A DNA stretch of 64,000 nt, from NCBI GenBank assembly GCA_021234155.1, contig JAJEKV010000023.1, forward strand, positions 5,105,945-5,169,944. The letters run 5' to 3'. Origin of the DNA: Isoetes taiwanensis (lineage: Eukaryota > Streptophyta > Lycopodiopsida > Isoetales > Isoetaceae). A program made the position numbers and the translations under genes. The notes below the pieces were generated by a model, which had not been told where the DNA came from, did not search any database, and saw only the letters and a program-made list of their open reading frames with translations. Position 1 is the stretch's first letter, and each line of letters begins with the position of its first letter. Below, piece by piece: positions 14,923 through 53,728 of the stretch.

Positions 14923-17195
14923 GCTTCCATGAGCACAATTCACCCTTAGAAGAAAAAAACTAATGAAATAAACTAAAACTTGGAACCAATAGGATGTCAT
15001 GTTTGAACCGATAAGGTGTGTCATGTTTGAGCCAATAGGGTGTCATGTTTGAACCAATAGAGTGTGTCATGTTTGAACCAATAGGATGTGTCATGTTTGA
15101 GCCAATGAGGTGTCATGTTTGAACCAATAGGGTGTGTCATGTTTGAGCCAATGAGGTGTCATGTTCGAGCCAACATGAGGTCATGTTTGAACCAATAGGG
15201 TGTGTCATGTTTGAGCCAATAGGGTGTGTCATGTTTGAGCTAATGAGGTGTCATGTTTGAGCCAACATGAGGTCATGTTTGAACCAATAGGGTGTGTCAT
15301 GTTTGAACCAATAGGGTGTGTCATGTTTGAACCAATAGGGTGTGTCATGTTTGAACCAATAGGTTGTGTCATGTTTGAGCCAATAGAGTGTCATGTTTGA
15401 ACCAATAGGGTATGTCATGTTTGAGCCAATAGGGTGTCATGTTTGAACCAATAGAGTGTGTCATGTTTGAACCAATAGGGTGTGTCATGTTTCAGCCAAT
15501 AGTGTGTGTCATGTTTGAACCAATAGGGTGTGTCATGTTTGAGCCAACATGAGGTCATGTTTGAACCAATAGGGTGTGTCATGTTTGAGCCAATAGGGTG
15601 TGTCATGTTTGAACCAATAGGGTGTGTCATGTTTGAGCCAATAGGATGTCATATTTGAACCAATAGAGTGTGTCATGTTTGAGCCAATGAGGTGTCATGT
15701 TTGAACCAACAGAGCACAACTCACCCTTAGAAGAAAAAAGCTAATGAAATAAACTAAAACCTTGGAACCAATAGGATGTCATGTTTGAACCAATAGGGTT
15801 TGTCATGTTTGAGCCAATAGGGTGTCATGTTTGAACCAATAGAGTGTGTCATGTTTGAACCAATAGGGTGTGTCATGTTTGAGCCAATAGGGTGTGTCAT
15901 GTTTGAACCAATAGGGTGTGTCATGTTTGAGCCAATGAGGTGTCATGTTTGAGCCAACATGAGGTCATGTTTGAACCAATTGGGTGTGTCATGTTTGAGC
16001 CAATAGGGTGTGTCATGTTTGAACCAATAGGGTGTGTCATGTTTGAGCCAATAGGGTGTCATGTTTGAACCAATAGAGTGTGTCATGTTTGAGCCAATGA
16101 GGTGTCATGTTTGAACCAACAGAGCACAACTCACCCTTAGAAGAAAAAAGCTAATGAAATAAAATAAAACCTTGGAACCAATAGGATGTCATGTTTGAAC
16201 CAATAGGGCATGTTTGAACCAATAGAGTATGTCATGTTTGAACCAATAGGGTGTGTCATGTTTGAGCCAATGAGGTGTCATGTTTGAACCAATAGGGTGT
16301 GTCATGTTTGAGCCAATGAGGTGTCATGTTGGAGCCAACATGAGGTCATGTTTGAACCAATAGGGTGTGTCATGTTTGAGCCAATAGGGTGTGTCATGTT
16401 TGAACCAATAGGGTGTGTAATGTTTGAGCCAATAGGGTGTCATGTTTGAACCAATAGAGCACAACTCACCCTTAGAAGAAAAAAGCTAATGAAATAAACT
16501 AAAACTTTGGAACCAATAGGATGTCATGTTTGAACCAATAGGGTGTGTCATGTTTGAGCCAATGACATGTCATGTTTGAGCCAACATGAGGTCATGTTTG
16601 AACCAATAGGGTGTGTCATGTTTGAGCCAATAGGGTGTGTCATGTTTGAGCCAATGAGGTGTCATGTTTGAGCCAACATGAGGTCATGTTTGAACCAATA
16701 GGGTGTGTCATGTTTGAGCCAATAGGGTGTGTCATGTTTGAACCAATAGGGTGTGTCATGGTTGAGCCAATGAGGTGTCATGTTTGAGCCAACATGAGGT
16801 CATATTTGAACCAATAGGGTGTGTCATGTTTGAACCAATAGGGTGTGTCATGTTTGAACCAATAGGGTGTGTCATGTTTGAACCAATAGGTTGTGTCATG
16901 TTTGAACCAATAGAGTGTGCCATGTTTGAACCAATAGGTTGTGTCATGTTTGAACCAATAGGGTGTGTCATGTTTGAGCCAATGAGGTGTCATGTTTGAA
17001 CCAATGGAATGTGTCATGTTTGAGCCAATAGGGTGTCATATTTGAACCAATAGATTGTGTCATGTTTGAGCCAATAGGGTGTCATGTTTGAACCAATAGA
17101 GTGTTATGTTTGAACCAATAGGGTGTGCCATGTTTGAACCAATAGGGTGTGTCATGTTTGAACCAATAGGTTGTGTCATGTTTGAACCAATAGGA
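14923..17195. repeat. Minisatellite array, block 1 (22/24-bp units)
   Basis: Tandem copies of TCATGTTTGAACCAATAGG plus GTGTG or GTG, giving 24- and 22-bp variants. The alternating forms have AACC or AGCC and AGG or GAG. A roughly 60-bp spacer (CACCCTTAGAAGAAAAAAGC then TAATGAAATAAACTAAAACC) recurs at about 14932, 15712, 16121 and 16457, so a higher-order unit of about 335-780 bp is visible. Every unit carries CCAAT. Long open frames (MTHPIGSN octapeptides on the minus strand) come only from the 24-bp periodicity. Confidence 0.95.
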
Positions 17196-18644: not shown

Positions 18645-21600
18645 TGCATGTTTGAACCAATGGGTTGTGTCATGTTTGAGCCAATAGGGTGTGTCATGTT
18701 TGAACCAATAGGGTGTGTCATGTTTGAGCCAATAGGGTGTCATGTTTGAACCAATAGAGTGTGTCATGTTTGAGCCAATGAGGTGTCATGTTTGACCAAA
18801 AGAGCACAATTCACCCTTAGAAGAAAAAAGTTAATGAAATAAACTAAAACCTTGGAACCAATAGGATGTCATGTTTGAACCAATAGGGTGTGTCATGTTT
18901 GAGCCAATAGGGTGTGTCATGTTTGAACCAATAGAGTGTGTCATGTTTGAGCCAATAGGGTGTGTCATGTTTGAGCCAATAGGGTGTGTCATGTTTGAAC
19001 CAATACGATTGTGTCATGTTTGAGCCAATGAGGTGTCGGTTTGAGCCAACATGAGGTCATGTTTGAACCAATAGGGTGTGTCATGTTTGAGCCAATAGGA
19101 TGTGTCATGTTTGAACCGATAGGGTGTGTCATGTTTGAGCCAATAGGGTGTCATGTTTGAACCAATAGAGTGTGTCATGTTTATGCCAATGAGGTGTCAT
19201 GTTTGAACCAACAGAGCACAACTCACCCTTAGAAGAAAAAAGCTAATGAAATAAACTAAAACCTTGGAACCAATAGGATGTCATGTTTGAACCAATAGGG
19301 TGTGTCATTTTTGAGCCAATAGGGTGTCATGTTTGAACCAATAGAGTGTGTCATGTTTGAACCAATAGGGTGTGTCATGTTTGAGCCAATAAGGTGTCAT
19401 GTTTGAACCAATAGGGTGTGTCATGTTTGAGCCAATGAGGTGTCATGTTTGAGCCAACATGAGGTCATGTTTGAACCAATAGGGTGTGTCATGTTTGAGC
19501 CAATAGGGTGTGTCATGTTTGAACCAATAGGGTATGTCATGTTTGAGCCAATAGGATGTCATGTTTGAACCAATAGAGCACAACTCACCCTTAGAAGAAA
19601 AAAGCTAATGAAATAAACTAAAACCTTGGAACCAATAGGATGTCATGTTTGAACCAATAGAGTGTCATGTTTGAACCAATAGGGTGTGTCATGTTTGAGC
19701 CAATGAGATGTCATGTTTGAGCCAACATGAGGTCATGTTTGAACAAATAGGGTGTGTCATGTTTGAGCCAATAGGGTGTGTCATGTTTGAACCAATAGGG
19801 TGTGTCATGTTTGAGCCAATGAGGTGTCATGTTTGAACCAATAGGTTGTGTCATGTTTGAACCAATGAGGTGTCATGTTTGAACCAATAGTGTGTGTCAT
19901 GTTTGAGCCAATGAGGTGTCATGTTTGAACCAACAGAGCACGACTCACTCTTGGAAGAAAAAAGCTAATGAAATAAACTAAAACCTTGGAACCAATAGGA
20001 TGTCATGTTTGAACCAATAGGGTGTGTCATGTTTGAGCCAATAGGGTGTCATGTTTGAACCAATAGAGTGTGTCATGTTTGAACCAATAGGTTGTGTCAT
20101 GTTTGAGCCAATAGAGTGTCATGTTTGAACCAATAGGGTGTGTCATGTTTGAGCTAATAAGGTGTCATGTTTGAACCAATAGAGTGTGCCATGTTTGAAC
20201 CAATAGGTTGTGTCATGTTTAAGCCAATGAGGTGTCATGTTTGAACCAATAAAGTGTGTCATGTTTGAGCCAATGAGGTGTCATGTTTGAGCCAACAGAG
20301 CACAACTCACCCTTAGAAGAAAAAAGCTAATGAAATAAACTAAAACCTTGGAACCAATAGGATGTCATGTTTGAACCAATAGGGTGTGTCATGTTTGAGC
20401 CAATATGGTGTCATGTTTGAACCAATAGAGTGTGTCATGTTTGAACCAATAGGGTGTGCCATGTTTGAGCCAATAGGGTGTGTGATGTTTGAACCAATAG
20501 GGTGTGTTATGTTTGAGCCAATGAGATGTCATGTTTGAGCCAACATGAGGTCATGTTTGAACCAATAAGATGTGTCATGTTTAAGCCAATAGGGTTGTCA
20601 TGTTTGAACCAATAGGGTGTGTCATGTTTGAGCCAATAGGGTGTCATGTTTGAGCCAATAGGGTGTGTCATGTTTGAACCAATAGGGTGTGTCATGTTTG
20701 AGCCAATAGGGTGTCATGTTTGAACCAATAGAGTGTGTCATGTTTGAGCCAATGAGGTGTCATGTTTGAACCAAAAGAGCACAATTCACCCTTAGAAGAA
20801 AAAAGCTAATGAAATAAACTAAAACCTTGGAACCAATAGGATGTCATGTTTGAACCAATAAGGTGTGTCATGTTTGAGCCAATAGGGTGTCATGTTTGAA
20901 CCAATAGAGTATGTCATGTTTGAACCAATAGGGTGTGTCATGTTTGAGCCAATGAGGTGTCATGTTTGAACCAATATGGTGTGTCATGTTTGAGCCAATG
21001 AGGTCATGTTTGAACCAATAGGGTGTGTAATGTTTGAGCCAATAGGGTGTGTCATGTTTGAACCAATAGTGTGTGTCATGTTTGAGCCAATAGGGTGTCA
21101 TGTTTGAACCAATAGAGCACTACTCACCCTTAGAAGAAAAAAGCTAATGAAATAAACTAAAACCTTGGAACCAATAGGATGTCATGTTTGAACCAATAGA
21201 GTGTCATGTTTGAACCAATAGAGTGTGTCATGTTTGAGCCAATGAGGTGTCATGTTTGAGCCAACATGAGGTCATGTTTGAACCAATAGGGTGTGTCATG
21301 TTTGAACCAATAGGGTGTGTCATGTTTGAACCAATAGAGTGTGTCATGTTTGAACCAATAGGTTGTGTCATGTTTGAGCCAATAGAGTGTCATGTTTGAA
21401 CCAATAGGGTGTGTCATGTTTGAGCCAATAGGGTGTCATGTTTGAACCAATAGGGTGTGTCATGTTTGAGCCAATAGGGTGTGTCATGTTTGAGCCAATA
21501 GGGTGTGTCATGTTTGAGCCAATAGGGTGTGTCATGTTTGAGCAAATGAGGTGTCATGTTTGAGCCAACATGAGGTCATGTTTGAACCAATAGGTTGTGT

Positions 21601-22198
21601 CATGTTTGAGCCTGTCATGTTTGAACCAATAGGATGTGTCATGTTTGAGCCAATGAGGTGTCATGTTTGAGCCAACATGAGGTCATGTTTGAACCAATAG
21701 GGTGTGTCATGTTTGAGCCAATATGGTGTGTCATGTTTGAACCAATAGGGTGTGTCATGTTTGAACCAATAGGTTGTGTCATGTTTGAACCAATATGGTG
21801 TGTCATGTTTGAACCAATAGGGTGTGTGATGTTTGAGCCAATAGGGTGTGTCATGTTTGAGCCAATAGGGTGTGTCATGTTTGAACCAATAGGTTGTGTC
21901 ATGTTTGAACCAATAGAGTGTGTCATGTTTGAACCAATAGGTTGTGTCATGTTTGAACCAATAGGGTGTGTCATGTTTGAGCCAATGAGGTATTATGTTT
22001 GAACCAATGGAGTGTGTCATGTTTGAGCCAATAGGGTGTCATGTTTGAACCAATAGGGTGTGTCATGTTTGAGCCAATAGGGTGTCATGTTTGAACCAAT
22101 AGAGTGTCATGTTTGAACCAATAGGGTGTGTCATGTTTGAACCAATAGGGTGTGTCATGTTTGAATCAATAGGTTGTGTCATGTTTGAACCAATAGGA
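18645..22198. repeat. Minisatellite array, block 2 (22/24-bp units)
   Basis: Same family as block 1, about 3.55 kb. The spacer recurs at about 18801, 19212, 19576, 19936, 20297, 20776 and 21114, giving intervals of about 340-480 bp, several close to 360. The last 600 bases lack the spacer and are nearly pure 24-bp units. The two blocks share their right-hand ends (…CAATAGGAGTTTCTGCCCCTC) where they meet the duplicated 1.35-kb segment. Confidence 0.95.
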
Positions 22199-23570: not shown

Positions 23571-24592
23571 TTATGCAATAATTTGATAGTCGTTTGGCTA
23601 TGCAGGGATAAAGTCAGTCATGATGGGCATAGGGATATGGTAAAATTGTGAAATCTTAAGCTAACTTCGGAGAACGTCATATGATTTTAAAGACAAATTT
23701 AGGGACTAACGGGTCTAAGGGAATATTCCAGAATAACCTTGGAGAACCGAAAGAAATCTTTAAAGAATGAAAAGATTTTCTTAGATTTCTTAGTGTTCCA
23801 CGATACAAAAGAATCTAAGATAACTTACAAGAGAATCTAAGACAACTTAAGAGAATCCAAGAGAATACAAGAGAATCTAAGATAACTTAAGGGAATCTTG
23901 GAGGGAAGATTGAATATAAGCTTTGTAATCACATTTAATTGTAAGTTAATAGGCTTTGTAGCCAATAGTGGGGCCAATATGTCATAAATATTAATAGTTG
24001 AGCATGTGTGAACATAAATTAGCTAAGGTGAGACTTGCATGTTAAATTGATATAAGGGCAAGTCCCATTGTGGGAATAGGTTAAGGTAGGTCTATTAATA
24101 TGACTTCTTTAAGGTTATTAAGTTAGGATACCTCTATAACTAATGTATGCTTAGGTATGTATAATATGCTCAATGAGGGGAAATTTTATGTAAAATCTAA
24201 AAGACACATTGAATGAGAAAAATGACTTCCACAAAAGATGCCATTTTTTTGGTATATTTTCTAAAAAATTTTAGAGGGGAATGCAGTTCGATTCGATATA
24301 AAACATTGTTATTGTAGGCAACCAACCTTGTTCAAAGTGTTCAAGACTCAAGATGTATCATACAATTAGTATTGGTCAATGTGGTCAAGACTCATACAAT
24401 TAGTATTGGTCAATGTGGGGTAGGGTAGGGTCAATGTGGTCAAGAATCAAGATGTATCATACAATTAGAGGGTAGGGTAGGGTAGGGTAGGGCTAGCATG
24501 TAAAAACGTAGGGTGCGTGTAAAAACATAGCATATGCATACATATATAGACTAGATGATATGAATCTCTCTTAGCCCTTGAAAGATTTTGAG
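23571..24592 (+). promoter_or_regulatory. Upstream region of collagen-like gene, with TAGGG repeats and TATA-like site
   Basis: No coding region. AGAATCTAAGATAACTTA-type repeats occur at 23810-23890. A duplicated phrase (CATACAATTAG, TTGGTCAATGTGG, CAAGA(A/C)TCA) occurs at 24340-24470. GGGTAGGGTAGGG runs lie at about 24417-24430 and 24470-24492 and could form a G-quadruplex. CATATATAGAC (about 24540) is a plausible TATA element some 50 bases before the ATG at 24593. Confidence 0.5.
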
Positions 24593-33135: not shown

Positions 33136-34491
33136 CTAGTCACCGAAACTCCCTCGGATCCTTCGTGCTAGCTGGAGGTCCTTGGGCATTATGGTAACCC
33201 TCTTTGCATGTATGGCGTAGAGGTTGGCGTCGCTCAAAATGTCGATGAGGTAAGCCTCGGCAGCCTCCTGGAGTGCGAGGATTGCAAAGGCTTGAAACCT
33301 CAGGTCGGTTTTAAAGTCCTGGGCAATTTCCCGAACAAGCCGCTGAAAAGGGAGCCGACGAATCAATGGCTCAGTAGTCTTCTGATACTTACGTATCTCG
33401 CGAAGAGCTACTGTGCCCGGTCGGTACCTATGGGGCTTCCTCGGCTTGACGGTTTGCTTCAACAATGGGATGGATTTCCCGCCAGTTGTCAGATGCTTTG
33501 CCCGCTGAATGATCTGCTCGCGTCGCTGAGCCGATGTTTTCTTGGCAATGGTGGCATCCCTCTGCAATCGGGTCTTATAATCAACACCCCCCTTTACGGG
33601 TTTTGTATTCTTCCTCTTCCTATTACCCCACTCCCTATTCTTCCTATTCTTGCCTCCGCCCTGATCTACATGTTGATCCTGCTGTTGATCAACGTTCTGA
33701 TCCACCGTTTGGTCAATATTTTGATCAACATTTTGATCCTGCTGCTGATCAATGTTCTGATCCCCCTGCTGGTCAACCTGCTGGTCCTCCCGCTGATCCA
33801 TCTGCTGGTCCCCGCCCTGCTGGTTTTGGGCATCCTCCTCTTCTTTACGAAGCCTCTCTCTCTCAGCAGCCCGGGCCTCTTTGTCCAAACGCGCTTGTAT
33901 GCGCCTGGCAATCTCCGTATGGTACCGGGCTGGGCGAGCCCGAATGTCCGCTTGCACAAGATCCATGCGATCCTGGGTGAAGCTAGGTGGAACATTTTCA
34001 AAAACAAAACTATAAAGTTCTTCGTTCCAAAAGAAGGTGGGAAGGTTGTAATGGTCCCTGTACATAAGTACATGGCCTTTACCAAGGTAATAGAAACTGT
34101 TGGCCCGCTCTTCTGGTAGGGCACTAGCTATTTGCTGAAGGTCTTCTACCCTAGCAAGGAGCTGAATCCTTTGGGCCTCCGTCCGGATGAGCTCGGCGGG
34201 ATCTTCCTCGGGACCGGCTTGTGGATAGAACTTAACAAGGGCCCAAGCTTGATCAGGCTGCTCCACAAGGGTGTAGGGTTGGTCTGCAGCATTTAGCTTC
34301 ATGAGGAAGCGGTCGTTAAAGTGGAAGATCGGGTAGGGGATTCTACGGCCCGCAGTGAAATGAGTCACGAGTAGATCTAAGACATCGTCGATCATAGGGT
34401 TTTCCTTCGAAAGATAGTCTAGTAGGACGCTAAACAGCTGGAAGACGTTCATCTTCTTTAGGTCGACCGTCAGCTTGAAGCGCGGCATCAT
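33136..34491 (-). CDS. Histone H3-fold fusion protein (451 aa)
   Basis: Intact frame from tandem ATGs at 34491/34488 to a stop at 33136. Residues 1-180 are an unrecognised domain ([39 protein letters not shown]). Residues 185-222 are a charged probable coiled coil ([20 protein letters not shown]). Residues 225-277 are a DQQ/DQNVDQ repeat, and residues 280-300 a basic, probably nuclear-targeting patch ([20 protein letters not shown]). Residues 352-451 are a near-canonical H3 core: [68 protein letters not shown]. The usual H3 tail is replaced and the conserved Cys before AIHAKR is Tyr. Loop 1 has no insertion, so it derives from ordinary H3 rather than CenH3. Whether it enters nucleosomes is unknown. 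Confidence 0.85.
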
Positions 34492-35151
34492 AGCGCTGGC
34501 GATGGGCGACAAGGAAGAAGAAGTAGGGCGCTCAAACTTAAACAAGTGGCGCTAGGGAGTAGGTGAGGGCGCTAGGGGTTTAGGGTAGTTGCAAGGTGGC
34601 GGTAGAGGTCGGCTATGGCGGAGAAGGAGTTCAGGTCCGGCGGCTATGGCGGAAAAAGGTCGCCCAAAGAAACACACTTTTCAAAAAAAAAGTACACAAA
34701 ATTTGAATTTAACTTTTAACTTTTTATTAAAAATTTTCAGTTTTTTTTTTTTTTTTTCCCGGGCACGTATAAAAATACGCGGGACCGTATGGGGCGCTGC
34801 GAGCGTTATACGCTCCTAACTCCCCGAAAGAAACGCCTCGGACGACAGCAGCGCCCCTTTTGACTTTTCGGCCGGCTGTTGACGTCCCGCCCTCGGGAGA
34901 CGCGCCCCCTAGGGTATTTGAGAGGTATTGGAACCATTTTTGCCCCCATCCGAGCTACCTACAGAAAGTTATGGCCCTTCCAAACTTGGGTCCTCCAGTC
35001 GCCCTAAACTTCTTAAGAACTTACAATCTATTACATAACCTAGCACAAAACCAAACATCAAAAAGCTAAACAATCACACTAGCTTAAACTCCCTCCTAAC
35101 TACCGAACTAACGAGTTAGGGTTTGGTCAGTGCTATGATTTGAGTAACGAA
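34492..35151 (-). promoter_or_regulatory. Leader between primer-binding site and H3-fusion start
   Basis: About 660 bases, no long frame. The minus strand contains GCGTATTTTTATACG (a TATA-like palindromic site near 34770), a run of about 17 A (34741-34757 as T on plus), and CCGCCATAGCCG repeats (34610-34650) also found near 5.8 kb. GC-rich sequence with CCGTATACGGTC-like blocks lies at 34780-34820. It could be promoter and 5' UTR of the fusion gene, or the leader of an LTR element. Confidence 0.45.
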
Positions 35152-39973: not shown

Positions 39974-42740
39974 GTCAATGGTGTGGACCACCCAAAGGGT
40001 GTTGAGGCTGAGACTACTAAGCAAATTATCCTCTACAGTAGGTTGAATTGGAAGAATAAGAAGGTGAAAGTGAAGCACCAATGCAATAAGGAGCTAGTAG
40101 GTGAAGGAACTATCATACTAGCTGATCCTATCCAAGATGTCAATGATGAAAGATTAGGAGAGGATAAAGTGGGTGTGGCCATAACAAGTTTAGAAGAAAA
40201 ATGGAAAGAAAAAGGGTCAAATCACCAGGATTGCACTGCTTGTATTAAACAATTGGAGGTTCCATGCATCATGCCATGGTCTATAGCCTGCATTGAGTTT
40301 ATAGGAGATTTCCTTTTACCAGAGCTAGAGGTTGTGTAGATGACACTGATTTTCTTAATGCACCTCCAATAGCTGCCAGGACCACATTTTCAGAAAAGTG
40401 GGCACACTCAATAGTGAAACAGTATCCTAGCAAGAGGTCCAAGTCAAGTAGTGATTGTTCACGTGAAGCTATGGCTAAGGTAAGGGGAATGGAATGTTGT
40501 TGGGCTAATTGTGTTCAGAAGTTTGAAATTGATGAATTGGTGGAAGCAAGAGCCACCTTCCAAGAGTATACTTATGATGAGAGGAGGACTTACATGTACT
40601 CCATTCATGAGCTTGCACTTCAAAATTAAAAATATCGAAAGAAAAAAAGATAGCCACTGCTAGGGGCATGGATATGTAAAGTTGCATGGATAAATATTCA
40701 TGGCATTCCAATTTCATCTTGGCAAAATTGGCAAGCAAGTCATGCAAAGGGGAGCAAAATTGCATTACATGGAAATAATGGCATGTTGAGGCCAACTTCT
40801 AGGATCCTGGCTGCTAGGGAGGTTTTTGATAAATATGTTGAATTCAATGCTGAGAATATGCCGCATAAAAGTAGGAAAGATCAATAAGGAAAAATAGTTG
40901 TCGAGAAGAGATTGCCATGCTATTGTACCCAGAAGAGCATATTGGAGGAAGTGAATGCTTTGCTTCGAGAACTAATGGTACCTGCAATATCTCAATCCAG
41001 CTTCAGTAGACTATGGAGCAAGCACTTCAAGCATGTCATTATAGACCCTTCGAACAACTTTGCAAAGTGCAACTTGTGTACTAAGTTGAAAGAGATTATG
41101 GATAAGACCAAGCAACCAAGCCAAAGGGCTAAGATAAGGGAGCAAATGAAAGATCACATGACAGACCAACTATCATGTAGATCCACTTATTGGATGTGGA
41201 GAACATTATCATGTTTGAAACCCAATAACTATGTTTGTATTATACATGACAAGATAGATCAAGCGAAGACTTGTTTGCCACAGTATAGTTATATACCCAA
41301 GCAAATCAATAGAGCTTATCCTATGCAAGTCTCTCTGATAGGTGCAATAGTGCATAGCTCGGTGCCAATTTATTATGACCATTTTAGTTTGCAATTGGAG
41401 TGATGATCCTGCTTTTCATATTGGAAGTGTGATGAGGTGCTTGAGCTGGAGGTGGTAGCCAACCACTCTTCAGTGCGTTGTTGGATAGAAAACCTAATAA
41501 TTTAGAGAAGTTTACTAAGGCAAGGTTTAGGAAGTCAGGTGCTTCTGAACATGTTGGAGCCTCAAGTTCGCATCCCCAACCTCGAGATCTACCACCAAAG
41601 TTCCTCCCCCAACTTGACAATTGTGCTGGACAGAATAAAAACAGGTATATGTTCTCATTCCTATCTTATTTAACAGCTGTGGGTGTCTTTGAAAGAGTGA
41701 ATTTAGGGTTCTTAATGCCTGGACATACTCATGAGGATGTGGATGCATTTTTTGGGAAGTATAGTGCGCAGTTAAAATCTCAAATTGTGACCAATCTTTC
41801 TAGACTAATGGAAGTCCTTAGTGAATGCATTTCAACTTCTCTTATAGGGTTGATCATACAAGAGGTGCCTGATTGGAGGAATTTTATCGAAGGTTATGCT
41901 CTTGATATGGAAGGTCAATCTAGACCTCTTCAGTACACTTTCTGGGTCATGGGAAATAAGCCAATAATGTAATGGAAGATGAGGCCTTCAGATGATAAAT
42001 GGAGGCCAGATGAGGGAGTACCTATATGGCAAGAAGATGAAAATGGTAAACCTAAGATTCCAAGGGGTCAACCAATAGCTCTTAAGCTTTTTGTAGAGGT
42101 GGATTCATTGCAAAGCACATTGGACGGCATTTCTGAATACATCAAGTATTGGAAAAATAACCCCGATGATATCAACCTTGCATTGATAGATTATTGGATA
42201 CAGGTACATGGATTATTGGGACAAGTAGACACATCCTCTGATGAACTGAAAGATGGATGGCTACCTAAGTCTAGGTGGAGAGACTTGATAACATCTGAGG
42301 AAATTGATGATGTGGTTAGTAGTATTCGCAAGTCGATGACTCCTCCAGCTGCTGAAAAACATTATGTTAGTCCTAGGAAAGGAAGGCCTAAATATTTCAG
42401 GCTGGAGTATTATGATCCAAAAAAAAATTTGCTTTGCCATCAATTTGCACTTATAGTACCAGAGTGCAAAGAGATATACCCTGTGTGGATGGGGTACACC
42501 ATCTCAGATGTTTGCAAAGAAGTGGGTGACCGCAATGTGAACAAAGTTCGTGTGGAGTGGTGGTGTCCAGTGCACCAATTAAATGCAATGGCAGAGGAAG
42601 AAAGATATAGAGACTGTTGGACAAAGAAATGGAAGAAAAACCCTATTGAAGGGGATGATTGGGTTGAGTTAGATACTATTTTGTTTTCATGGACCCAAAT
42701 GTCATTCCAAACAAGACTGTTAGCGTTACAATACCTGTAG
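39974..42740 (+). pseudogene. DUF7869-type transposase-like gene, member 1
   Basis: Open pieces on one strand in order: 39983-40339 (VDHPKGVEAETT; GEGTIILADPIQDVNDERLG, loosely like the DUF8039 beta domain of plant transposon proteins); 40400-40900 with ECCWANCVQKF; 40912-41403 with FAKCNLCTKLKEIMD; 41478-41972; and 41979-42740. The diagnostic block at 41605-41770 reads FLPQLDNCAGQNKNRYMF then LGFLMPGHTHEDVDAFFGKY. In this family the LDN..GQNKN and GHTH.D.D.F motifs resemble an RNase-H-fold catalytic core. In-frame stops near 40627, 40653 and 40887 and frame changes near 41400-41480 and 41972 show it is decayed. The C-terminal 250 residues have no recognised domain. A paralogue lies at 50.7-53.5 kb. 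Confidence 0.75.
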
Positions 42741-43778
42741 AAGTGAGGAAGAAAGCTATGATATCTCTAGGCGTCACTTCTGAGAAGTAATTGGCATTAT
42801 GTCACTCGACATATATATGTAAAATATTTTCAATTTTTAATGCAATCATGTTGTGCTGTTATAAAAAAAAAGTCACATTCTTGATGCAAATTTACTAACT
42901 CGGGAAAAAGTTGCAGTGCCAAAATGGTCCAAAATCCTGACATAAATCTAATTTAAATGAATGATGGTTATAACATCTAATCTATCTACCTGAACATACA
43001 TGGTTAGGTTCCCTTGTTAGGGCTTGTGATCTCAGAATCTATAAGACCTCTAAGGCTGAACTAACGTGCTAAACCAGCTCATTGCCGGCCTAAAAGTCGG
43101 CGTTGCACAACAGAATAGCCATTTACCTAATCCTTGGCTTGCTCCATCTCCTCGAAATGCGTCCATGCCTTCATTCGGGCTAAAGGCAGCTACTTCTGGA
43201 AGATCTGTTGTGCAAATGCGGCTTAGCGGCGCCTGGCAATGCAGAATAGCAGTTTAGCTTGGCCGGAATGGCCCAAGGAAGCCAAAATATGAAACTAGAA
43301 AAGGTCTAGGGTTTCCCCTTTTATTCCTTTTACATGAACTTTTAGGTTTAGGTTAGAAGGGGCCAATGGGGCTTTGCCATTTGGCAAAGGGGTTTAATTG
43401 CGTATGTTTAATATACATGCACATATGAGGTTGCCCCCTAGAACACTGTTGCAAATTAAACGGGAGTGTTGCAGCACTCCCGTTTCGTAGATTCCCTTTT
43501 AAAAAACACCATGTTTCTAAAGTAAGCCTTTTTTGATAGTTATTGAGAATTTGTAGAGGTTCGCGTTTTTTTTTCATATCATTTTGGGCCATCATACTTA
43601 TGAAACACAAATCATAAAAATAGCGAAATTTAGGCATAGACTTGAAGAGACTGAAAGCATGACAAAAAAAAAGCACCAGAATAGAAAGGAAAAAAAAGTA
43701 ATATGTTTTTAATAAATTTTTGTACATCAATATTGAAGATACATTGTAATAAATAATGATAATTTTAACATGCAGTAG
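42741..43778. other. Intergenic between DUF7869 member 1 and the methyltransferase gene
   Basis: No gene supported. Near 43458-43485 an 11-bp perfect inverted repeat (AAACGGGAGTG, loop TTGCAG, CACTCCCGTTT) is visible. The last part is probably the 3' UTR of the minus-strand methyltransferase gene. Confidence 0.5.
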
Positions 43779-45233
43779 TTAAAGATCTACATCATACTCC
43801 TCATCATTCTTTTTGCTGCTCTCTGCCGTCTGCTCCTTCTGTGCCGTCTGCTCCTTTTCTGGAGACTTAAGTTTTGCATCCGCCTTGTCCTCTGGAATGG
43901 TAGCTAAAGCTACTTCTTTAAGCTCTGTAAAGGTTGCCTCGTCGTCTAGTGAGCTCGAGAATGGAGGCTGTATCTTTGAGGACGTCAGTTTAGCAAAATC
44001 AGATGAAGACTTGGCCCCTAACTCTTGATTTTCATCTGGTAAAGTAGGTAAGGCAGCCAGTCTCATCTTCACAAAATTCACAGCCTCCTTATCAATATCC
44101 ACGGCTACACAGTTGCGGCCCTTCTTAAGTGCACATGCGATGGTAGTACCAGAACCAGAGAAAGCATCAAGCACCCAATCTCCTGGACGCGAGAACATGT
44201 CCAGGAGATGGTTGATGAGCTTCTGTGGTTTCTGGTAGTGATTCACAATCCTGCCTTGTGCACTTGGGTCCTGCAATTTCTGTAAGACTGCTGGAAACTC
44301 TAGGACGTTTGAAAAGTTTTGACAGACGGCAGAGTTGAAGTGTTCCATGGTCCTCTTCCCATCAAAACTCCAGTAAGCAACATGAAGGTACTCTACCTTG
44401 CTGAGTAACCTTGGTCCTCCACCATGGTAGTTGATGTTCGTTTTGTACCTAGTGAAATATTTAAAGTGATGTTAGCAAAAACAAGAAAACACTTCGAAAA
44501 CTAGAAACAGGAAATCCTATTCCGGAATACACGACGTAATCGAAGAGGAAAGTAATTGTATTCTGGAATAAGACTTACCAGACAAGGTTTTCATATCCTG
44601 CCTGAACTGGAGAACCAAAATGGTTTTTGAAAGCTGATTCTACCAAGCCAGCCTGCATGCTCGAATGGAACATAACTAGACGCCAATGTTTGGCAGTTGT
44701 GATCTGCTTGATTCCATCAATGAAAGCATTAAACTCTGAAAATTTAAAGGGCTGGTCGTCGTATCTGCTGTCTTTAAGCTTAAACCCGTATGGAAGATCA
44801 GCAATAACCAAAGTAAAGTCCTGTGGCTTAACCGTTCCGACAAGGTCCGTGCAATCGCCATGAATGATCGAAAATAGATTGTTTTGATCAAACATGCAAA
44901 ATCTTTCATAGTCGGATGGTTCTGGCTCAACAGTTCTTCTTTCAGCTAACGACCTCTCTTCCCATGCAGTTCTAACCAAATGCATGAAGCCCTCGGGAAG
45001 GTCTTTGTTCTTCTTCTTGCTCTGGAAGGAAAAACAGAACAACAACTGTCAACCCATCGTTTATGCAGAGAAGAGAAATTTTCAGAGTACTTACCCAGCC
45101 CTCAAAATTTGGTGCATATTGCACAATGCGCTCGTCGGAAGTGGCTATTGGGTAGAGTTTCTTGCACCTTTCCCATGTCTCGACGTTTAGCTGCTCCATC
45201 AAACATGTTTGACATGTTATGACGTTTTTTTGG
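43779..45233 (-). CDS. Exons 4-6: DNA methyltransferase catalytic region
   Basis: Exon 5 carries motif IV as VIADLPYGF (44788-44799 encode DLPY), preceded by FSIIHGDCTDLVG. Exon 6 carries the (N)HYQKP(QKLINHLL) box and motif I as LDAFSGSGTTIACALKKGRN (FSGSGTT at 44142-44162), which binds S-adenosylmethionine. Motif IV before motif I is the beta-class order of the PF01555 N4/N6 family. DLPY differs from the usual DPPY (adenine) or SPPY (cytosine). Splicing exon 5 to 6 restores ENLVW|YKTNINYHGGG in frame. The last 110 residues are acidic/Lys-rich (EKEQTAQKEQTAESSKKNDE). Adjacent exon 4 contains VITCQTC, a possible metal-binding pair. Confidence 0.85.
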
Positions 45234-45381
45234 CTGCAAGACGTTAAGGAAACATTGAGTTAAAAAGTAAGAAACAAAGCAAAGCAGAAGAAAAACAAAT
45301 CAAAGTCAAGCTATTTGTAGTCCAGAATACAAACCGGTCAACTGGTGTTGCTACCTTGAAACAATATGTAGAAAATATTTG

Positions 45382-45602
45382 TATTCCAGGATACACACAT
45401 TGCTTGTCTCTAGAAAGGCATGTATATTCTGGAATACACAATGCTTTTCTAGAGGAAGGCATGTGTATTCCAGAATACACATGCCTTCCTTCAGAGGAGC
45501 AATGTGTATTCCGGAATACACAATGCATTTCTAGAGAAAGGCATGTGTATTCTGGAATACACATTGCTCGTCTGAAGGAAGACATGTGTATTCTGGAATA
45601 CA
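45382..45602. repeat. 41-bp-spaced palindrome array within intron 3
   Basis: Six to seven copies of GTGTATTCYRGAATACAC alternate with spacers that are themselves mutually inverted (AATGC.TTTCTAGA(G)GAAGGCAT and ATGCCTTCCTTCAGA). Adjacent units can therefore pair into hairpins. Spacing is 41 bp at 45425-45589. Confidence 0.88.
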
Positions 45603-45848
45603 CTTTCTACACCGAAGTTTCTGGGACTTTAACATCCAAGGAATAAAGTTTGTGTCAGAGATCTTACTTTTGCAATTCCTTTGACATTCTTCCAGGCTGA
45701 ACTCCTTATCAACAACTTTTTGGAGCAGCCACTCCAGAAGCTCTGTGTCGGAGAAGCCCTGCATTTCTCGCCAGACGGTAATGGTCATTTTTTTTTTGGG
45801 CACGCCGGAGGATTTTTTCTTGGCTGTCTCCTTGCCCTTGCTCTTTAA

Positions 45849-48492
45849 CACTAGAGTTGTCCCGGGGACCATTTCTGGTCCATGGACCAGAAATGGTCCA
45901 CCACACCCCCTGCCACTTAAACTGATATATCTCACAAGAGAAATTTTAATTTTAAAATATACCACCACTATTTGAATCCTCGCTTGATTCTTAACGACCT
46001 GTAAGAATTTCATGACCACTGGATTCACCTTTATATTGGTATGATTGTTCAAACTTTGGAGAATTTGGCAGTTTTTACAGCACTCTAGAACTGCATTCTT
46101 CAATTTTCTAGCATAAAAGTGTCTAAACCTTGCCAAATATGAAATTAATTGATATATTATGATAAAACATGTCAATTTGCATGTTTCCATGTTTTGCCAC
46201 TATCATTTGATATCAATTGAAGCCGCCAAACCCTATTTCGCTTAAAAATGCTGCATGAGGTTCAAGAATTATTTCTCTCTTATTATTACAAGTTTCGACT
46301 TAATTTTTGTGACAATGAGTCCTTAACTAGACAAACTATAGTCTAAGGAATTTTTTTTATGTTTATATGTTTTTTTTAGTATCATTATTAACTAAGGAAA
46401 TTATTGTACAGAATTCAAAATAAAAATATGGGTTAAAGTGCTTCGATAAACCCCATCTATAAGTCTCATAAGGATAGTAAATGATGCATTCTAATTAACT
46501 CTATATAGGAATTCACTTTATCAACATAAATATAGTGTAACTAGGGTATAACCATGCATTATCTAGATCTAAACAAGATCTAATATAACAGGATGAACAC
46601 AAAGAAAGGTTCCAAAGTGCATTGATTAGACCCTTATAGGTCTAAAACTCAACAATAATGTAGGTAATGATGGTTATTGATGAATAGAGGACAATATCAC
46701 GAAGTTTAGCCATGACTATAAATAAATAGATCAAAAGACTTTTCGTACCTGTTTTTCTAGTTCATCTAAAATATTAACTTATTGCACTGCATTTCTCCCA
46801 TAAGCCTTTTAAATGGCTCAATATATGATAAAAAGGGATATTGAGGTCCTCGATGTGGTCTTATTAGAAAAAAAATGTAGAAACCTACTTACTTTCCACT
46901 ATTATAAAGTTAAACAATGTGTGGCTGCTCCAAAGTGTTGTAGTCTAAGTAGGTACATGTAGATCAACTTTTATGACAAGTTATAATTTTTGTAAATTTG
47001 AACGTTTGTTGACAATATATATCGCAAATTTCATGTTAGAATAATATATTATATACAAGATTTGAATATAAATAAGCATGGACTATTTATAGGTCCAGAA
47101 TTAAACCAACTGGATTGAGAAAATTTCTCTATTTATTTGCATTGGCTCTATTCATTTTGTCCCCTACAATGATATTATGATTTCTCATCGTCTATAAGAT
47201 AATCTTTGAAAGGTGTAAGTGGACTTTCTCATACATTCAAAGTAGCCCTTAGCTACTTAATTTTTGTGCTTCAATATCACCTTTTAGATAGACAATCCTC
47301 CCTAATCAACTAATGTTATCATATATAATGTGATATAAACTATATTCTAAAGAATTGATTAAGATGATGATGTTCTTGACTTTTAAATGAGAGGGTTATG
47401 TGGACCAATAATTGGCATCGGCATAGCAGTCTATCTTGATCTTCTTTAGTCATACCTTTTCATATTTTTCCTTGGTTCAGCTTGCATTGCTATCTTAACT
47501 TTGGGAAGCTTTGAAATATGGTGTTTGAAGTTCATTTTCAAGGCACAAATCTAGAGATCAAATATGGAAAACATTTGATGATAACTTGGAAGTAATACTA
47601 AAAGTTTTAGCCCAAACCTAGCAATAGATATTTTTTATTGATAGAGGATCTCATGAAATACTAATATCCTAAAATTCAGCTTGAGATCGAATAACATAAA
47701 GAAGTTATTGATTTAAAATGAACCTGTGGACCAGTAATGGTCTTAGATACAGAAACCTTTATTGATTTATCATGATCGTGCCTTTTGCTCTTTTTCTTTA
47801 CTTGTTTTTTCTTTGGTTTCATATCCATACAAGCATTCATATATTTTTTTTTTAATAATATACTATTTCAATAAATTTCCTTCAAATATAACAAAATAAA
47901 CATCAATTAAAAGTCACTTAAAATTGTTACTATAAGTCAAAATTTGAATCTTCAAATTACAGGCCAACAAATATTTTTTATGCATGAAGCAATTAGTCAA
48001 CTACTTATATTCCAAATTTGAAGCAAAAAAATCATTTTCATGTAAAAGTTATAGAATTTTAATTGAAACTTGACCTTACGGGAACCATTATTGGTCCATA
48101 GAAAGAAAAACTATTTTGACCCCTGTCATGTTTGGTGACTATATCTTCCTTTCTAGACTTCAAATTGGAACAAGGTTTTTTGTGTATTCATCCTTATCTC
48201 GTATAGAAAAATACTATTATAATGAAAAAAATCAAAAAAATCTTTTTATTGAGACAGTTTTACATTATGTAAACATGAAGCAAACTGGACTTGACCCCTC
48301 TTGGTTCACCTAGACATAACTTTCAATTTTAGGGGTATATGCATTTTTAACTATTTTTCCTGTACAATATGACTGCCATATATTAACATGTAGAAAGGGT
48401 TTAACTGAATTTTATGCCATTGATTTTATATGAATTTTAAAGCGAACTGTACAAATGAACCATTTATGGTCCATCAAGGGACAACTCTAGTG
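45849..48492. mobile_element. 2.64-kb non-autonomous DNA transposon with TTAA target-site duplication
   Basis: Terminal inverted repeats CACTAGAGTTGTCCC (45849-45863) and its exact complement (48478-48492). TTAA lies on both sides (45845-45848, 48493-48496). Sub-terminal motifs (GGACCATTTCTGGTCCA at the left; ACCATTTATGGTCCA at the right; ACCATTATTGGTCC near 48082) are repeated. There is no coding frame of note and the interior is AT-rich. Removing it with one TTAA restores the open frame FERGE|LKSKGKE of exon 3, which shows the insertion is secondary. The TTAA target is typical of piggyBac-like elements, while the CACTA start recalls CACTA elements; the superfamily is not settled. Confidence 0.9.
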
Positions 48493-48607
48493 TTAACTCC
48501 CCTCGTTCGAACATTGTAAATATCTCGTCCTGGAGTTTCCAAATCTATTCAAGAAGATTTCACGTCAGATAGTTGATTTGTTATTCTGGAATACGTTTTG
48601 TGCTTAC

Positions 48608-50002
48608 CCTGACATCTCTAAAAGCTAATTGGAACCAGTTATCGTGGCCAATGAGAGACTGCCTTTCATTGGCCTCGTCATATTTCAGGCAGCATTCAAT
48701 GGCACACGCCTCCTTAAGCTCCAAGGAAAATGCTGGCTTCTTCAGGTCCTCACCGTACTTCTCCTTGAAAATTACGTACTCCCTGTGCATAAACCGGATC
48801 TTGTCGACGAAGCTCATCTTTAGTTTGTACTCATTGTCAGCATTGTGGATATTGGCAACGATTTTTGCTTCTTCATCGGTAAGACCACAGTAAACAGCGT
48901 AGAGGACGGAGAGGTACCTCGGGTTCTTCTTCTCTTTATAAAGTTGCCTTCTTGCCTTGAAGCTGTGATTTCCTCCCAAGACGTAGTGAGTGTAGGTGTC
49001 TGTATTTTCTCTGTCATAGTCTTGGGGGGTTTTGCACTGCTCCCTGTCAACAAGGACAACTATTGGGGCCACATGAACATTTGGATTGCTCCTTATTCTG
49101 TCCTTCAGGTTCCTCAAGTGATCGGCATAAATTTTGCGAACCTGAAGTGGCCTTTCACCAGCTTCATTTTTCGGGGGCAGCCTCATGCATGTCACAGGAA
49201 GGTATATCACCCCTTGTACAAATTTGTCTCTATTGATTACCTCCATTTTTTCGGAGGTCTTATCTTTTTTTTTTCTTTTATTGCTACCCCAGGAGCTTTT
49301 CCTTTTCCCTTTCGTTTCTTTGTGCTTTCCTCGGGGACTTCTGCATTTTCCAGCTGCTGTACTTTCTGCTTCTTTGGTTCCTTAGCGGCTATGGTGTCTC
49401 TTGGCCTGCTAAGTTTCTTTGGCTGCTCTGGGGGGTTTTCCGCTTCTTCTTCTTCTTCTTCTTCGGAACTTCCATCTGTTGCCCTCCCAGAAGTACTAGC
49501 AGAAGGTGATGATTGTGATCTTCCTCCATCTGATTGCTCGAACTCACTGACAGGAAAGTCCTCGCTCGTACTAGAACAAACCTGTCTAATTATTGTAGCC
49601 AGGCTTCATTTGGTCCGGTAGTGAGAAATGAATTTGTACAGTGGCTGTGGTTGCACACTGACAATTCTGAAGCTTGCGATATCTACGACAATGAATTCCT
49701 GGGAGGTCTTGAAGGATAGCCTCCCCACCTGACCTCCTTGTCCGGCAACCTCGGAGACCTCTTTTATTGTTCCCAGGTTAAGAAACTCGGAGTCCGCGTA
49801 CCATTTGTTCCCAGCACTCTTGCAGACATGTAGAAACGTCAGTGTGCTGTATTTTCCACCTGCACCCCTGGTTACGAACCATTGCGCTTGAAAATTTTCA
49901 TAAATTGCAGGCTCGTACGTGTCCGCAGTCTGCCTCTGTGGGTGTAGTCGCCTGAGCTTAAGAGTTTTTTTTGGTGCCCCCTTGCTTCCTTCTTCCCTGC
50001 CA
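48608..50002 (-). CDS. Exon 2: N-terminal domain, linker and ParB-like domain
   Basis: From the acceptor GTTTCAG at 50003 the frame reads GREEGSKGAPKKTLKLRRL, then QAQWFVTRGAGGKYSTLTFL and GRLSFKTSQEFIVVDIASF. The TGA at 49606-49608 may have been CGA. Next come a Ser/Glu-rich linker (DGSSEEEEEEEAENPPEQPK) and a Lys-rich stretch with an A run that shifts the frame. From 49246 the ParB-like domain reads IYLPVTCMRLPP, VAPIVVLVDREQ, HYVLGGNHSFKARRQLYKEK and VANIHNADNEYKL. GGNHSFKA occupies the place of the ParB box-II motif (GERRxRA) and resembles phage ParB/sulfiredoxin-fold versions. It ends at the donor AGG|GTAAGC. Confidence 0.8.
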
Positions 50003-50346
50003 CTGAAACGTTTAAAACAACAATGTTAAGACATAAAATGGGACGAAAACTGTATTCCAGAATAAGATTTACTAATCTTCTACCCTAAAGGCCAGCAAAT
50101 GACAGGAAAAGTAGCGAAAACATTGTCGCTCTAACTCGATTTTCAATGCATTATTTGGACTAAAAGGTAGTATGTTTAACCTAAAAAGTGGTCTGTTTAA
50201 GCTAAAAAGTGGTATGTTAAGGCTAAAAAAACAAGCATTTTCAAAAAGACAGGCAAAGTGTATTCCGGAATACACTTTGCCCTACAAAAGTAAATCAGTA
50301 AACACGCGAAAGACGTACTATGTACTTTACATGCTTACCTGTCCAT

Positions 50347-50682
50347 TATTTTCGCTATGTGAATCGGAATACAGCAAATGAATATAGGTCGGAAGGCGCT
50401 CGGGCTGGCGACTAGAACTCTGAAAGCAGAATACGCAACTGAGGCACTCAAATTTCCTTTTTAAAGGTAGGCCACTGTCAGTTGTGTTTTTCTATGTGAT
50501 CCGGAATACGACTTGTCCAAACATTCTGGACAAGTGTATTCTCGAATAGGATTCATGCACACACACGGCAAATGCTGTACACCAAACAGTATTCCGGAAT
50601 AGCTTTTTGTATTCTCGAATATGTTTAGTCCAACCGCCTTGTGAGTTACTGACAAGTCCACAATTTTTTGCAGTTGTTTAAC
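50347..50682. promoter_or_regulatory. Divergent intergenic region between methyltransferase and DUF7869 genes
   Basis: About 340 bases separate the two start codons on opposite strands. It holds four good copies of the palindrome (50497-50621) and one degenerate copy near 50360. On the minus strand, an acceptor (GCGTATTCTGCTTTCAG at about 50420) suggests a 5' UTR exon of the methyltransferase gene. On the plus strand, TTTTTTGCAG ends at 50672, just before the DUF7869 ATG at 50683. Confidence 0.6.
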
Positions 50683-53526
50683 ATGGTTAACCGCTTCGTG
50701 AATAAACTTCCACCACCCTTTGTTTGCCCAAGTACCTCTACTTCGGATGGAACACAAGACGGAGATGCTTCTTCAACTCCTACCTCGACAGGGTCTTTGT
50801 TGCTTCTCGAAGATACTCCGAGTCCAGTTACTAGTAGACTGCCACCACCTTTCTAACCCTCTCCAAGTCCAGCAGGAAACCGGCTGCCACCTCCTTTCAT
50901 AGCCTCACCTGTTGCACGTAGCAATCTTCCACCACCATTTGTACCATCCCCCGATACTACAAAGGCTTGACCTCAGCAAATTTTTCGGAACAGACTACCT
51001 CAGCCATTTGTAGTTTCTCCTTCTTCACTTACACAAGCAAGGAATATAGCACGTTCCAAAGACTGCGAGATCCTCCATCGGTTTTCCCACCACGATTTCA
51101 CTACAAATGAAGACGACCTTGCAGCATCTACTCCTCTTCACACAACCGTGGTGACACATGGGTTTGCAGAATTTCAGTCGGCTCTAAGAGACATGTTTGA
51201 ACGAACTCCTTTTGAAGAAGCTACAACAACATTCGCTGGCACATCATATCGTGGCCCATCTCCTTCATTCAACACTGTACCTCCACCTTATCCGGGTACA
51301 GCTTCACGTGGTTTGTTCTCCTCTACAAGCACACCACTAAGGGTAGAGGAGGTCACCCCCAGAGTAGAACTCTGTTCAGAAGATGAAGATACCAACGAGG
51401 TGCAACGAGATTACACATTCTCTAGCCAGTCCACCAAGAAATTCAAGGTGGATTGTGGTGTGAGAGCATGCTCCTCTGTAAGAAGAAGAAACCTTATGGA
51501 CGAGCATAAAATGAGATGATTTTTAAGAAGTAGATGCTGCTCATTGGGTTGCATCAACAAATTTAACATGTCCAAATTACGAGCAATTAGAGACAACTAC
51601 AGTTCAATGACATTGGCTGACCAGAATGCCTACTTGGCCTATCATGTAAGACCAGACCGCAACACCTTCTTGCACTACATTAACCGTGAAGAAGTTTGCC
51701 AGAAATGCTTTATGGTTGTCCACCGTTTAGGGTCCACCAGAATGTCTAGAAACACAAAAGACTGGACAAAAATCCAACAATTGATGATCATTGTGGACCA
51801 AGAAGAGTTGTAACCATGCATGCCCTTGCTGCTATCTCATGGATGAAGAAATATTTCAGAGAAACATGTGAGAAGCTGCCTAACAGCAATATGTATCATT
51901 TAACTGATAACATCACCAAAAAAGATGTTTTTAATGAGTACAAAGAGACTTGCACTCAGCTTCAGCACATCTCTTACTCACACTTCACCGGACTGTGGAA
52001 AAGTGAATTCGGTCATATGAAAATTCCCAGAAGACATAGAATGTCTGTTTGCTCAAGGTGTGCAGAATTAAAGAGTCAACGAGAAACTGTAAAGACAGAG
52101 GTCGAAAGACGTAAGCTCATGCTCTCCAATCTCTCACTTATTTTAAAGAAAATGATTTGACTGATTTCTTTCAGATATTGTGCAACAGAACCTTGCCAGA
52201 CATCGTGAACAATAAGCAACAGAGAGAAGAAAGCTTGCCAAGTACAGAAAAAAAGCTCTTGAACGTCCACTGCAATATATGTCTGTTGTGATAGATGGAA
52301 TGGATAAAAAAAAAACTACTCTACCCCATTTCTTGAACATTCCTAAAGATGTGCCAGAGGAATGTCTTGTTAAGGTCCACCTTGTAGGAGCTATGGTCTT
52401 CAAAAGAAGTCTAAAGTGCAAAGTATTTTTGACGTATCCAAACTTGCATGGTGACCCGAACCTCACAATTACAATTCTTAACAAGGTCCTGTGCGAGCAA
52501 GAGCAGTTACCACCAGTGCTTTACCTGCAACTTGACAACACTACAAGGGAGAACAAGAATCAAACACTCTTTGCTTACTGTGCCATGTTAGTGGAGCTAG
52601 GGATCTTTAGAAAAGTGAAGCTCGGTTTCTTACTTGTAGGCCACACTCATGATCAAATTGACCAAATGTTCAACAAATTTTTCTGTGCGCCTTAGAAGGA
52701 AGAATGCTTTTTCTCTTCCTACTTTAGTTCGAATTATTGAAGATTCTTACACTCCCACTCCAGTGATTGATCTTCTTAAAGAGACTGCTAATTTCAGAGA
52801 GTTTGTTTTCTCTCAACGTTCAGACAGAGAACAAGCTGTGAACAAGTTGAATGATCTCACCTTCCAACATCACATCAAGTTCTACTTGAAGGACGGCCAA
52901 AGCTTCTTACAGGGGAAGAAGTATACCACAACTAAGGACTGGAGTCCACCAGAGGGATTATGCTTTCTTAAATATATTCCAGACACTTCCTTCATAGAAC
53001 GTGCTGAGCAACTTCCTCTCAAAAATCCTAAGGAGTCCAAGAGAAGAAAAGTATCAGCGCCATCCTTAAAAGCCATTGAAAATGGAATTTCCTCAGGCTT
53101 TAAATACTTCTTAGAAGAAGATCGAATGTGGTGGAGTAATTTCTTTCTCGAACAGAAAATTGTTGTACAAAAGAACCATTTAAATGGCCTAACACCTTCC
53201 ATCAACCCCAGCACCAAGCAGGTCCAAGCAATGCTACATTAGCCCCTGCAGTAGAAGAAGACGAGGATCGAGTCATGTACCTCGGACCAAGACGCAGGAA
53301 TGAGCCTCAAGGTAATATCACAGAAATTACCAAAGGTATGCTAATTGCTCTTCCAACTGAGGAGGATGACAAAGGTCGACCTTTCTGGATAGCAAAAGTG
53401 CTTGACACAGTCAAGGAGGAAGGCTTAGTCACTAAACTCAAGATCCATTGGCTTGCAACACAGCACAAAAAATTAAGTCATTTGGGGGTCAAAATAGAAT
53501 TTCATGCATCCCTTTTTTTTTTTTAA
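50683..53526 (+). pseudogene. DUF7869-type transposase-like gene, member 2
   Basis: From ATG 50683 an N-terminal region contains five to six (K/R/N)LPPPF repeats, interrupted by TAA (50854) and TGA (50968). The frame continues to 51519, and past a TGA comes RSRCCSLGCINKFNMSKLRA, the Cys motif also seen in member 1. It continues through EEVCQKCFMVVHRLGS, SVCSRCAELKSQRE, then LQLDNTTRENKNQTLF (52527-52562) and LGFLLVGHTHDQIDQMFNKF (52641-52682), the same core pair as member 1. The C-terminal part (52649-53242) reads LVRIIEDSYTPTPVIDLLKE onwards, and a last piece (53275-53500) reads FWIAKVLDTVKEEGLVTKLK, similar to the DNA-facing tail of such proteins. Frame changes lie near 51810, 52160-52280 and 52690. 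It is head-to-head with the ParB-methyltransferase gene. Confidence 0.72.
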
Positions 53527-53529
53527 CCT

Positions 53530-53728
53530 CGTTTTACCCCCTTTTTTGTAAAAAAAAAGGAATCTTTGAGGAATTTTCCTTTTGCTCTCGTTTCGATGAT
53601 TTGCTCCCGTTTAATACGCAATCTTGTTCTAGGCGAAACCCTTTACGACTCTCAAGTACTTGTCAAGGTGACATGTACGCGTGATGTGACAGTACGTATT
53701 CAGACCATATATTATGCTGGAACTCACA
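53530..53728 (-). mobile_element. Partial Ty3/gypsy LTR, minus strand
   Basis: On the minus strand TGTGAGTTCCAGCATAATAT starts at 53728, directly after a polypurine tract (AAGGTGGGGAGAT at 53729-53741). The left end is not resolved; the DUF7869 coding sequence lies just beyond, so the LTR is short or truncated. Confidence 0.6.

Follow-up and report, generated by a model that had tools for sequence, protein, structure and literature searches.

We report a decayed gene in a 64,000-nucleotide stretch of Isoetes taiwanensis DNA (contig JAJEKV010000023.1; hereafter the window, in which positions are counted from the first nucleotide). The gene fuses a ParB-like domain to a beta-class DNA amino-methyltransferase, has a relative in a fern, stands head to head with a divergent gene and is accompanied by a non-random cluster of short palindromes in its introns and promoter. 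We judge the chances to be about even that the whole is a decayed transposon with a self-targeting ParB–methylase accessory gene. The more specific idea of a self-targeting epigenetic system, in which the ParB–methylase read its own parS-like or VANC-like cluster and wrote N6-methyladenine (6mA) or N4-methylcytosine (4mC) on the element, is offered more tentatively, at somewhat less than even chances.

According to our model, the locus would be the decayed remnant of a DNA transposon of about 10 kb in a land plant that carried two divergent genes, one encoding a DUF7869 protein (probably the transposase) and the other the ParB–methylase accessory protein. The latter would have been guided to the element by the clustered palindromes (ancestral form near TGTATTCCGGAATACA) within its introns and the shared promoter, would have bound them as a dimer through the ParB-like or another DNA-binding part, and would have methylated nearby DNA, more likely at N6-adenine than at N4-cytosine. 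We infer that the palindromes were the protein's own target and that the methylase acted there; the genes of the element might in this way have escaped host silencing, or have been tuned or activated.

Structure and decay of the ParB–methylase gene

The gene lies on the minus strand, with its ATG at 50346 and the end of its stop codon at 43779, and is split into six exons. Its five introns all begin with GT and end with AG, and both the span 43779..50346 and the five canonical introns are exactly as proposed in an earlier note on this DNA. The frame is kept across four of the five. The donor of intron 3 is ambiguous: a strong GTAAG shifts the frame by one base, and a weaker GTGTAG preserves it. 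Joined, with X at the breaks, the exons give a conceptual protein of 963 residues, near the 956 of the earlier note though not that exact figure. An N-terminal domain, for which a Pfam search returned no match, is followed by an acidic/lysine-rich linker, the ParB-like domain and the amino-methyltransferase. The parts of the gene are as follows.

50339..50346, minus strand: exon 1, with the start codon and donor GTAAGC
48608..50002, minus strand: exon 2, with the N-terminal domain, the acidic/basic linker and the ParB-like domain and its tail; holds the stop and the frame change below
49606..49608, minus strand: in-frame TGA in exon 2
49265..49274, minus strand: run of ten A (A10) at which the reading frame changes
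48710..49219, minus strand: ParB-like domain (weak profile support), with the GGNHS box at 48976-48962
48493..48544, minus strand: exon 3, first part, through one TTAA
45849..48492, no strand assigned: AT-rich insert of 2644 bp that interrupts exon 3; its terminal inverted repeats, CACTAGAGTTGTCCC, are perfect over 15 bp
45668..45844, minus strand: rest of exon 3, as far as the strong donor (45613 if the weaker donor is taken)
45095..45233, minus strand: exon 4
44579..45021, minus strand: exon 5, with motif IV DLPY at 44799-44788
43779..44448, minus strand: exon 6, with motif I FSGSGTT at 44162-44142 and the stop codon

The last exon matches the Pfam methylase family PF01555 (E = 9.9e-18). In beta-class amino-methyltransferases motif IV (DPPY-like) comes before motif I (FxGxGTT), and this is the order found here, with DLPY in exon 5 preceding FSGSGTT in exon 6. 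The closest solved structures, CcrM, MboIIA and RsrI, are adenine methylases. Motif IV reads DLPY here and DAPY in a related protein of the fern Adiantum nelumboides; N4-cytosine methyltransferases have an SPPY-like motif IV. Motif IV and the solved relatives suggest that the modified base is somewhat likelier to have been N6-adenine than N4-cytosine, and the affinity to N4-cytosine enzymes suggested earlier is not favoured. The methylase finds 620 records among phage proteins, and the best 25 of the 620 are all below 60% identity.

This copy of the gene is a dead pseudogene, broken by the TGA, by the frameshift at the A-run and by the insert in exon 3. The insert is bordered by TTAA on both sides, at 45845-45848 and 48493-48496. 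These three lesions and 13 palindromes, described below, are additions to what the earlier note contained. As a separate observation, the insert has, by eye, its own GGACCAT..ATGGTCC-like palindromes close to its ends.

The palindrome cluster

Exact TATTCNNGAATA is present in 14 copies in the window, 13 of which fall between 44518 and 50621. These 13 are divided between four introns (ten sites) and the DNA between the divergent genes (three sites), a non-coding total of 1373 bp made up of the five introns and 337 bp of intergenic sequence; the 2884 bp of exons contain none. When the 1373 non-coding bases were shuffled 300 times with dinucleotide composition preserved, a control for composition and not for evolution, TATTCNNGAATA never appeared. 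The motif had been spotted before it was tested; to compensate for this, it was compared with every possible 5-base arm having the same 2-base spacer, and the highest count that any of them reached in the shuffles was two. The sites are as follows.

44518..44529: palindrome TATTCCGGAATA, intron 5
44559..44570: palindrome TATTCTGGAATA, intron 5
45425..45600: array of five palindromes with a 41-bp unit, starting at 45425, 45466, 45507, 45548 and 45589, intron 3
48582..48593: palindrome TATTCTGGAATA, intron 2
50053..50064: palindrome TATTCCAGAATA, intron 1
50261..50272: palindrome TATTCCGGAATA, intron 1
50537..50621: three palindromes (50537, 50590 and 50610) in the intergenic stretch common to both divergent genes

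Intron 4 (73 bp) has no site and intron 2 (63 bp) has one; copies with one mismatch lie beside the intron 3 array at 45382 and 45318. The central dinucleotide is CG in four sites, TG in five, CA in two and TC in two, so that 11 of the 13 are CG, TG or CA. This fits an ancestral site of about TGTATTCCGGAATACA, the central CG of which would have been lost through methylation to 5-methylcytosine. Fourteen copies of a different dyad, CATGA..TCATG, also occur in the window, every one of them within tandem arrays at 15-22 kb. A pattern scan of viral_contigs for GTGTATTCNNGAATACAC gave two contigs (L001 and L002) with one site apiece. The lone copy of TATTCNNGAATA outside the element, at 23724, overlaps a three-unit heat-shock-like sequence at 23721-23735.

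We consider the palindromes to be a candidate target site of the ParB–methylase. They might alternatively be a substrate of the transposase or have a structural role (hairpins in DNA or RNA, in replication or splicing), with the ParB–methylase unrelated to them. As such a role would have it, every one of the 13 is a dyad over its 5-base arms, and at least one site is present in each intron but intron 4. The sites are, however, internal (the candidate ends of the element are 1.08 kb away on the left and 3.0 kb away on the right), and they are found in the promoter as well. The flanks of the eight sites outside the array are dissimilar (mean identity 0.33, maximum 0.47 over 28 pairs), and within the 41-bp array flank agreement is 0.96 near and 0.69 far. 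Since the short core is kept while the flanks vary, protein binding suits the sites better than a long hairpin stem, and we regard this alternative as unlikely.

A little less likely again is that the gene is as described and that a host transcription factor, heat-shock factor for example, binds the palindromes, which the element would have captured for stress-driven expression. TTCnnGAA is a heat-shock half-site pair and heat-responsive plant transposons exist; TTCNNGAA lies within every site, and three sites occupy the divergent promoter. On the other hand, 13 of the 14 non-coding copies of TTCNNGAA in the element extend to complete TATTC..GAATA arms, more than a heat-shock factor should require, and no three-unit heat-shock element occurs in its non-coding DNA (one is found at 52330, in the DUF7869 gene). 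The heat-shock explanation is set back by these two results, and the intronic position of ten of the 13 sites also tells against it.

The divergent gene and the putative transposon

The second gene of the putative transposon contains DUF7869 (PF25273, E = 3.8e-39) and lies head to head with the methylase gene, about 337 bp away. Its product is probably a transposase. Candidate ends of the element were found outside the two genes.

43437..43466, plus strand: candidate terminal inverted repeat on the left, matching its right-hand counterpart at 25 of 30 positions
50683..53526, plus strand: decayed divergent gene with DUF7869 (PF25273), interrupted by several stops and frameshifts; its limits are approximate
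53604..53633, minus strand: candidate right terminal inverted repeat

Repeat pairs of 14 bases matching at 12 or more positions and accompanied by a duplication of 4 bp or longer, 4 bp being the duplication size of the Sola1 superfamily, were sought and none was found; the candidate pair (11/14) falls under this filter. Among the open reading frame (ORF) pieces scanned against Pfam, which are part of the ORFs of the window, no ParA family was recognised, and Rfam and tRNA scans gave no match.

Three further observations were made here. LPPPF repeats, interrupted by stops, are seen at 50683-50970, where the decayed DUF7869 gene encodes the N-terminal part of its product. A second and distinct DUF7869 gene, at 40888-42740 on the plus strand (E = 1.7e-32), lies immediately to the left of the element and is broken too. 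A perfect hairpin, AAACGGGAGTG..CACTCCCGTTT, at 43458-43485 overlaps the left candidate terminal repeat on its inner side.

The locus might instead represent a horizontally acquired ParB–methylase that was turned into a host chromatin gene and has transposons beside it by chance. The relative encoded in Adiantum nelumboides would suit this account, as would the weakness of the candidate terminal repeats, and with the bdelloid N4CMT there is an earlier example of amino-methylase capture (PMC8885841). However, this copy is decayed in three ways, it shares a promoter with the divergent DUF7869 gene, a transposon of the same layout has been published from an alga (PMC12477816), and the fern model likewise has no normal motif I. 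We hold a host chromatin gene to be improbable. The earlier note had seen adaptation to nuclear chromatin in the linkers; their composition alone is uninformative, so that this suggestion is unsupported, and the gene was probably a transposon accessory gene instead.

The ParB-like domain and the fusion

For the ParB part NCBIfam gave a single match, the ParB family TIGR03764 (E = 0.0012). In PHROGs ParB-like families appeared at E = 0.031 and 0.059, ranked under an unnamed family at E = 0.0017. Among sub-threshold plasmid records (E = 0.4-9) four of five are annotated as ParB family, and among sub-threshold phage records one of ten is annotated as a ParB-like nuclease and the other nine are unannotated. 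The assignment suggested by these profile and record matches is weak but concordant.

Comparison of the ParB part with solved structures gave no relevant match. A single-sequence structure model reached a pLDDT of 40, a quality at which fold comparison is uninformative. Protein searches with the ParB part alone, over 474 and 592 candidates, gave no hit at E up to 1; at the same limit no relative was found in the phage collection, and pattern scans of viral_contigs and genome_contigs, which reach close relatives only, also found none. On the phage and contig results we rejected a contaminant or phage origin.

A search with the whole core scored the 7997 candidates that had most words in common with it and returned two proteins. 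The sole strong relative found is a 550-residue protein from A. nelumboides (E = 2.9e-27); of the plant and phage relatives that the earlier note had proposed looking for, a plant one was thus obtained, and none from phages for the ParB part at E up to 1. The fern protein aligns, in the same order, with the ParB tail, the stretch around the insert site (with a short gap beside that site) and the methylase, and the ParB core is outside its coverage. Its motif I region is abnormal, and the fern gene may itself be decayed or badly modelled. The other protein, P0002, looks like a common type of bacterial methylase bearing a nuclease-like domain and was set aside. Scanning viral_contigs with a two-row alignment gave four loci, in which similarity is confined to the surroundings of methylase motif I.

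The ParB core and tail form one open frame in exon 2. Because the fern model unites the ParB tail and the methylase across the insert site, the sequence comparison indicates that the fusion is real, and the earlier reading of a ParB-like domain and PF01555 in one spliced gene stands, securely for the methylase and weakly for ParB. That the two parts are separate genes or contaminant DNA joined artificially at the exons is very improbable, for although intron 3 has no strong in-frame donor and the fern protein leaves the ParB core uncovered, core and tail share one frame, tail and methylase share one fern protein, and neither the phage search at E up to 1 nor the contig scans, which reach close relatives only, produced a relative of the ParB part.

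Observations that weigh against the model

Several observations count against the model. The palindrome cluster is known from one decayed locus. That the DUF7869 product is a transposase is inferred. The terminal repeat pair scores 35, which two of 500 shuffled pairs equalled or exceeded (mean 24.1), and the same flanks aligned in direct orientation score 28; no target-site duplication is visible by eye at these repeats. The element is no more depleted in CpG than the window (0.53 and 0.52, respectively). Some phage methylases among the matches listed are annotated as N4-cytosine enzymes. The ParB part has no Pfam match, and no helix–turn–helix (HTH) was recognised in Pfam searches. Finally, the Box II P motif of ParB-type proteins is GxxR (PMC12704722), and ParB-type nucleotide binding is unsupported here because the corresponding box reads GGNHS.

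Other features of the window

A 471-residue frame at 33136-34551 on the minus strand has a C-terminal core-histone domain (PF00125, E = 4.8e-41), which we take to be that of histone H3; the usual tail is replaced by about 350 residues with DQ-rich repeats. Long tandem arrays of GAACCAATAGGGTGTGTCATGTTT with 24/46/116-bp units, a probable satellite, occupy 14983-17194 and 18647-22197. A PPR gene is present at 3344-4566 on the plus strand (PF13041, E = 4.8e-28), its E motif falling below the curated cut-off; sizeable PPR gene families are a mark of land plants, and the gene is a hint of a land-plant host.

Comparison with known systems

The closest working analogue of the proposed system would be VANC, the anti-silencing protein of the Arabidopsis VANDAL transposons, which is not known to carry a ParB-like or a methylase domain. 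The VANC21 motif is repeated in tandem within the introns of VANC21 and VANB21, and also upstream of VANA21 (PMC5735166; PMC10398659). The likeness lies in a short motif clustered in the introns and upstream DNA of an element, mainly in non-coding sequence (PMC5735166). The differences are that VANC causes loss of methylation and that its motif arrays are one-directional, whereas the sites here are palindromic.

Nearest in gene content is Sola1-1_Ec32 of Ectocarpus, in which a ParB–methylase is encoded opposite the transposase; its authors conjecture that proteins of this type attach to the element encoding them and modify it (PMC12477816). Both combine a ParB-like domain and an amino-methylase in one protein of about 1000 residues; the gene here would likewise lie opposite a transposase-like gene in a putative large DNA transposon. 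Our case differs in its land-plant host, in having a DUF7869 gene as neighbour, and in the palindrome cluster in introns and promoter, none being mentioned in section 5 of that paper.

The fusions of ParB with N6_N4 methylases in phages and bacteria show the same domain pair and association with mobile elements (PMC12704722; PMC5512222). They differ from the Isoetes gene, which is a spliced eukaryotic gene with an extra N-terminal domain and a ParB part for which the searches found no close relative. A nicking role for the ParB-like domain is possible by analogy, because the ParB domain of the bacterial ParB–methylase Bce_0392 can nick DNA (PMC5512222). The ParABS system (ParB/parS) likewise pairs a ParB-like domain with palindromes of about 16 bp that occur in clusters; the locus here departs from it in GGNHS for GxxR, the attached methylase, the lack of a recognised HTH and the lack of ParA among the scanned ORF pieces. 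The bdelloid N4CMT is also a eukaryotic amino-methylase of the PF01555 type, but it has a chromodomain, and the word ParB is absent from the main text of the report (PMC8885841).

The earlier note had held a ParB–methylase with five spliceosomal introns in a vascular plant to be undescribed. ParB–methylase accessory genes have been published in transposons of a brown alga and, according to the same paper, of green and red algae (PMC12477816), and this claim to novelty must therefore be narrowed; for land plants no case was found among the top matches in the open-licence literature. As far as those matches go, the Isoetes gene would be the first ParB–methylase of a land-plant transposon and its palindromes would be the first candidate target site to be proposed for a protein of this kind.

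For the algal transposon ParB–methylases function has so far been conjecture only, and the site cluster described here makes that conjecture testable. The Isoetes locus would add land plants to the hosts of such proteins, and it suggests a VANC-like strategy reached convergently by means of a methylase.

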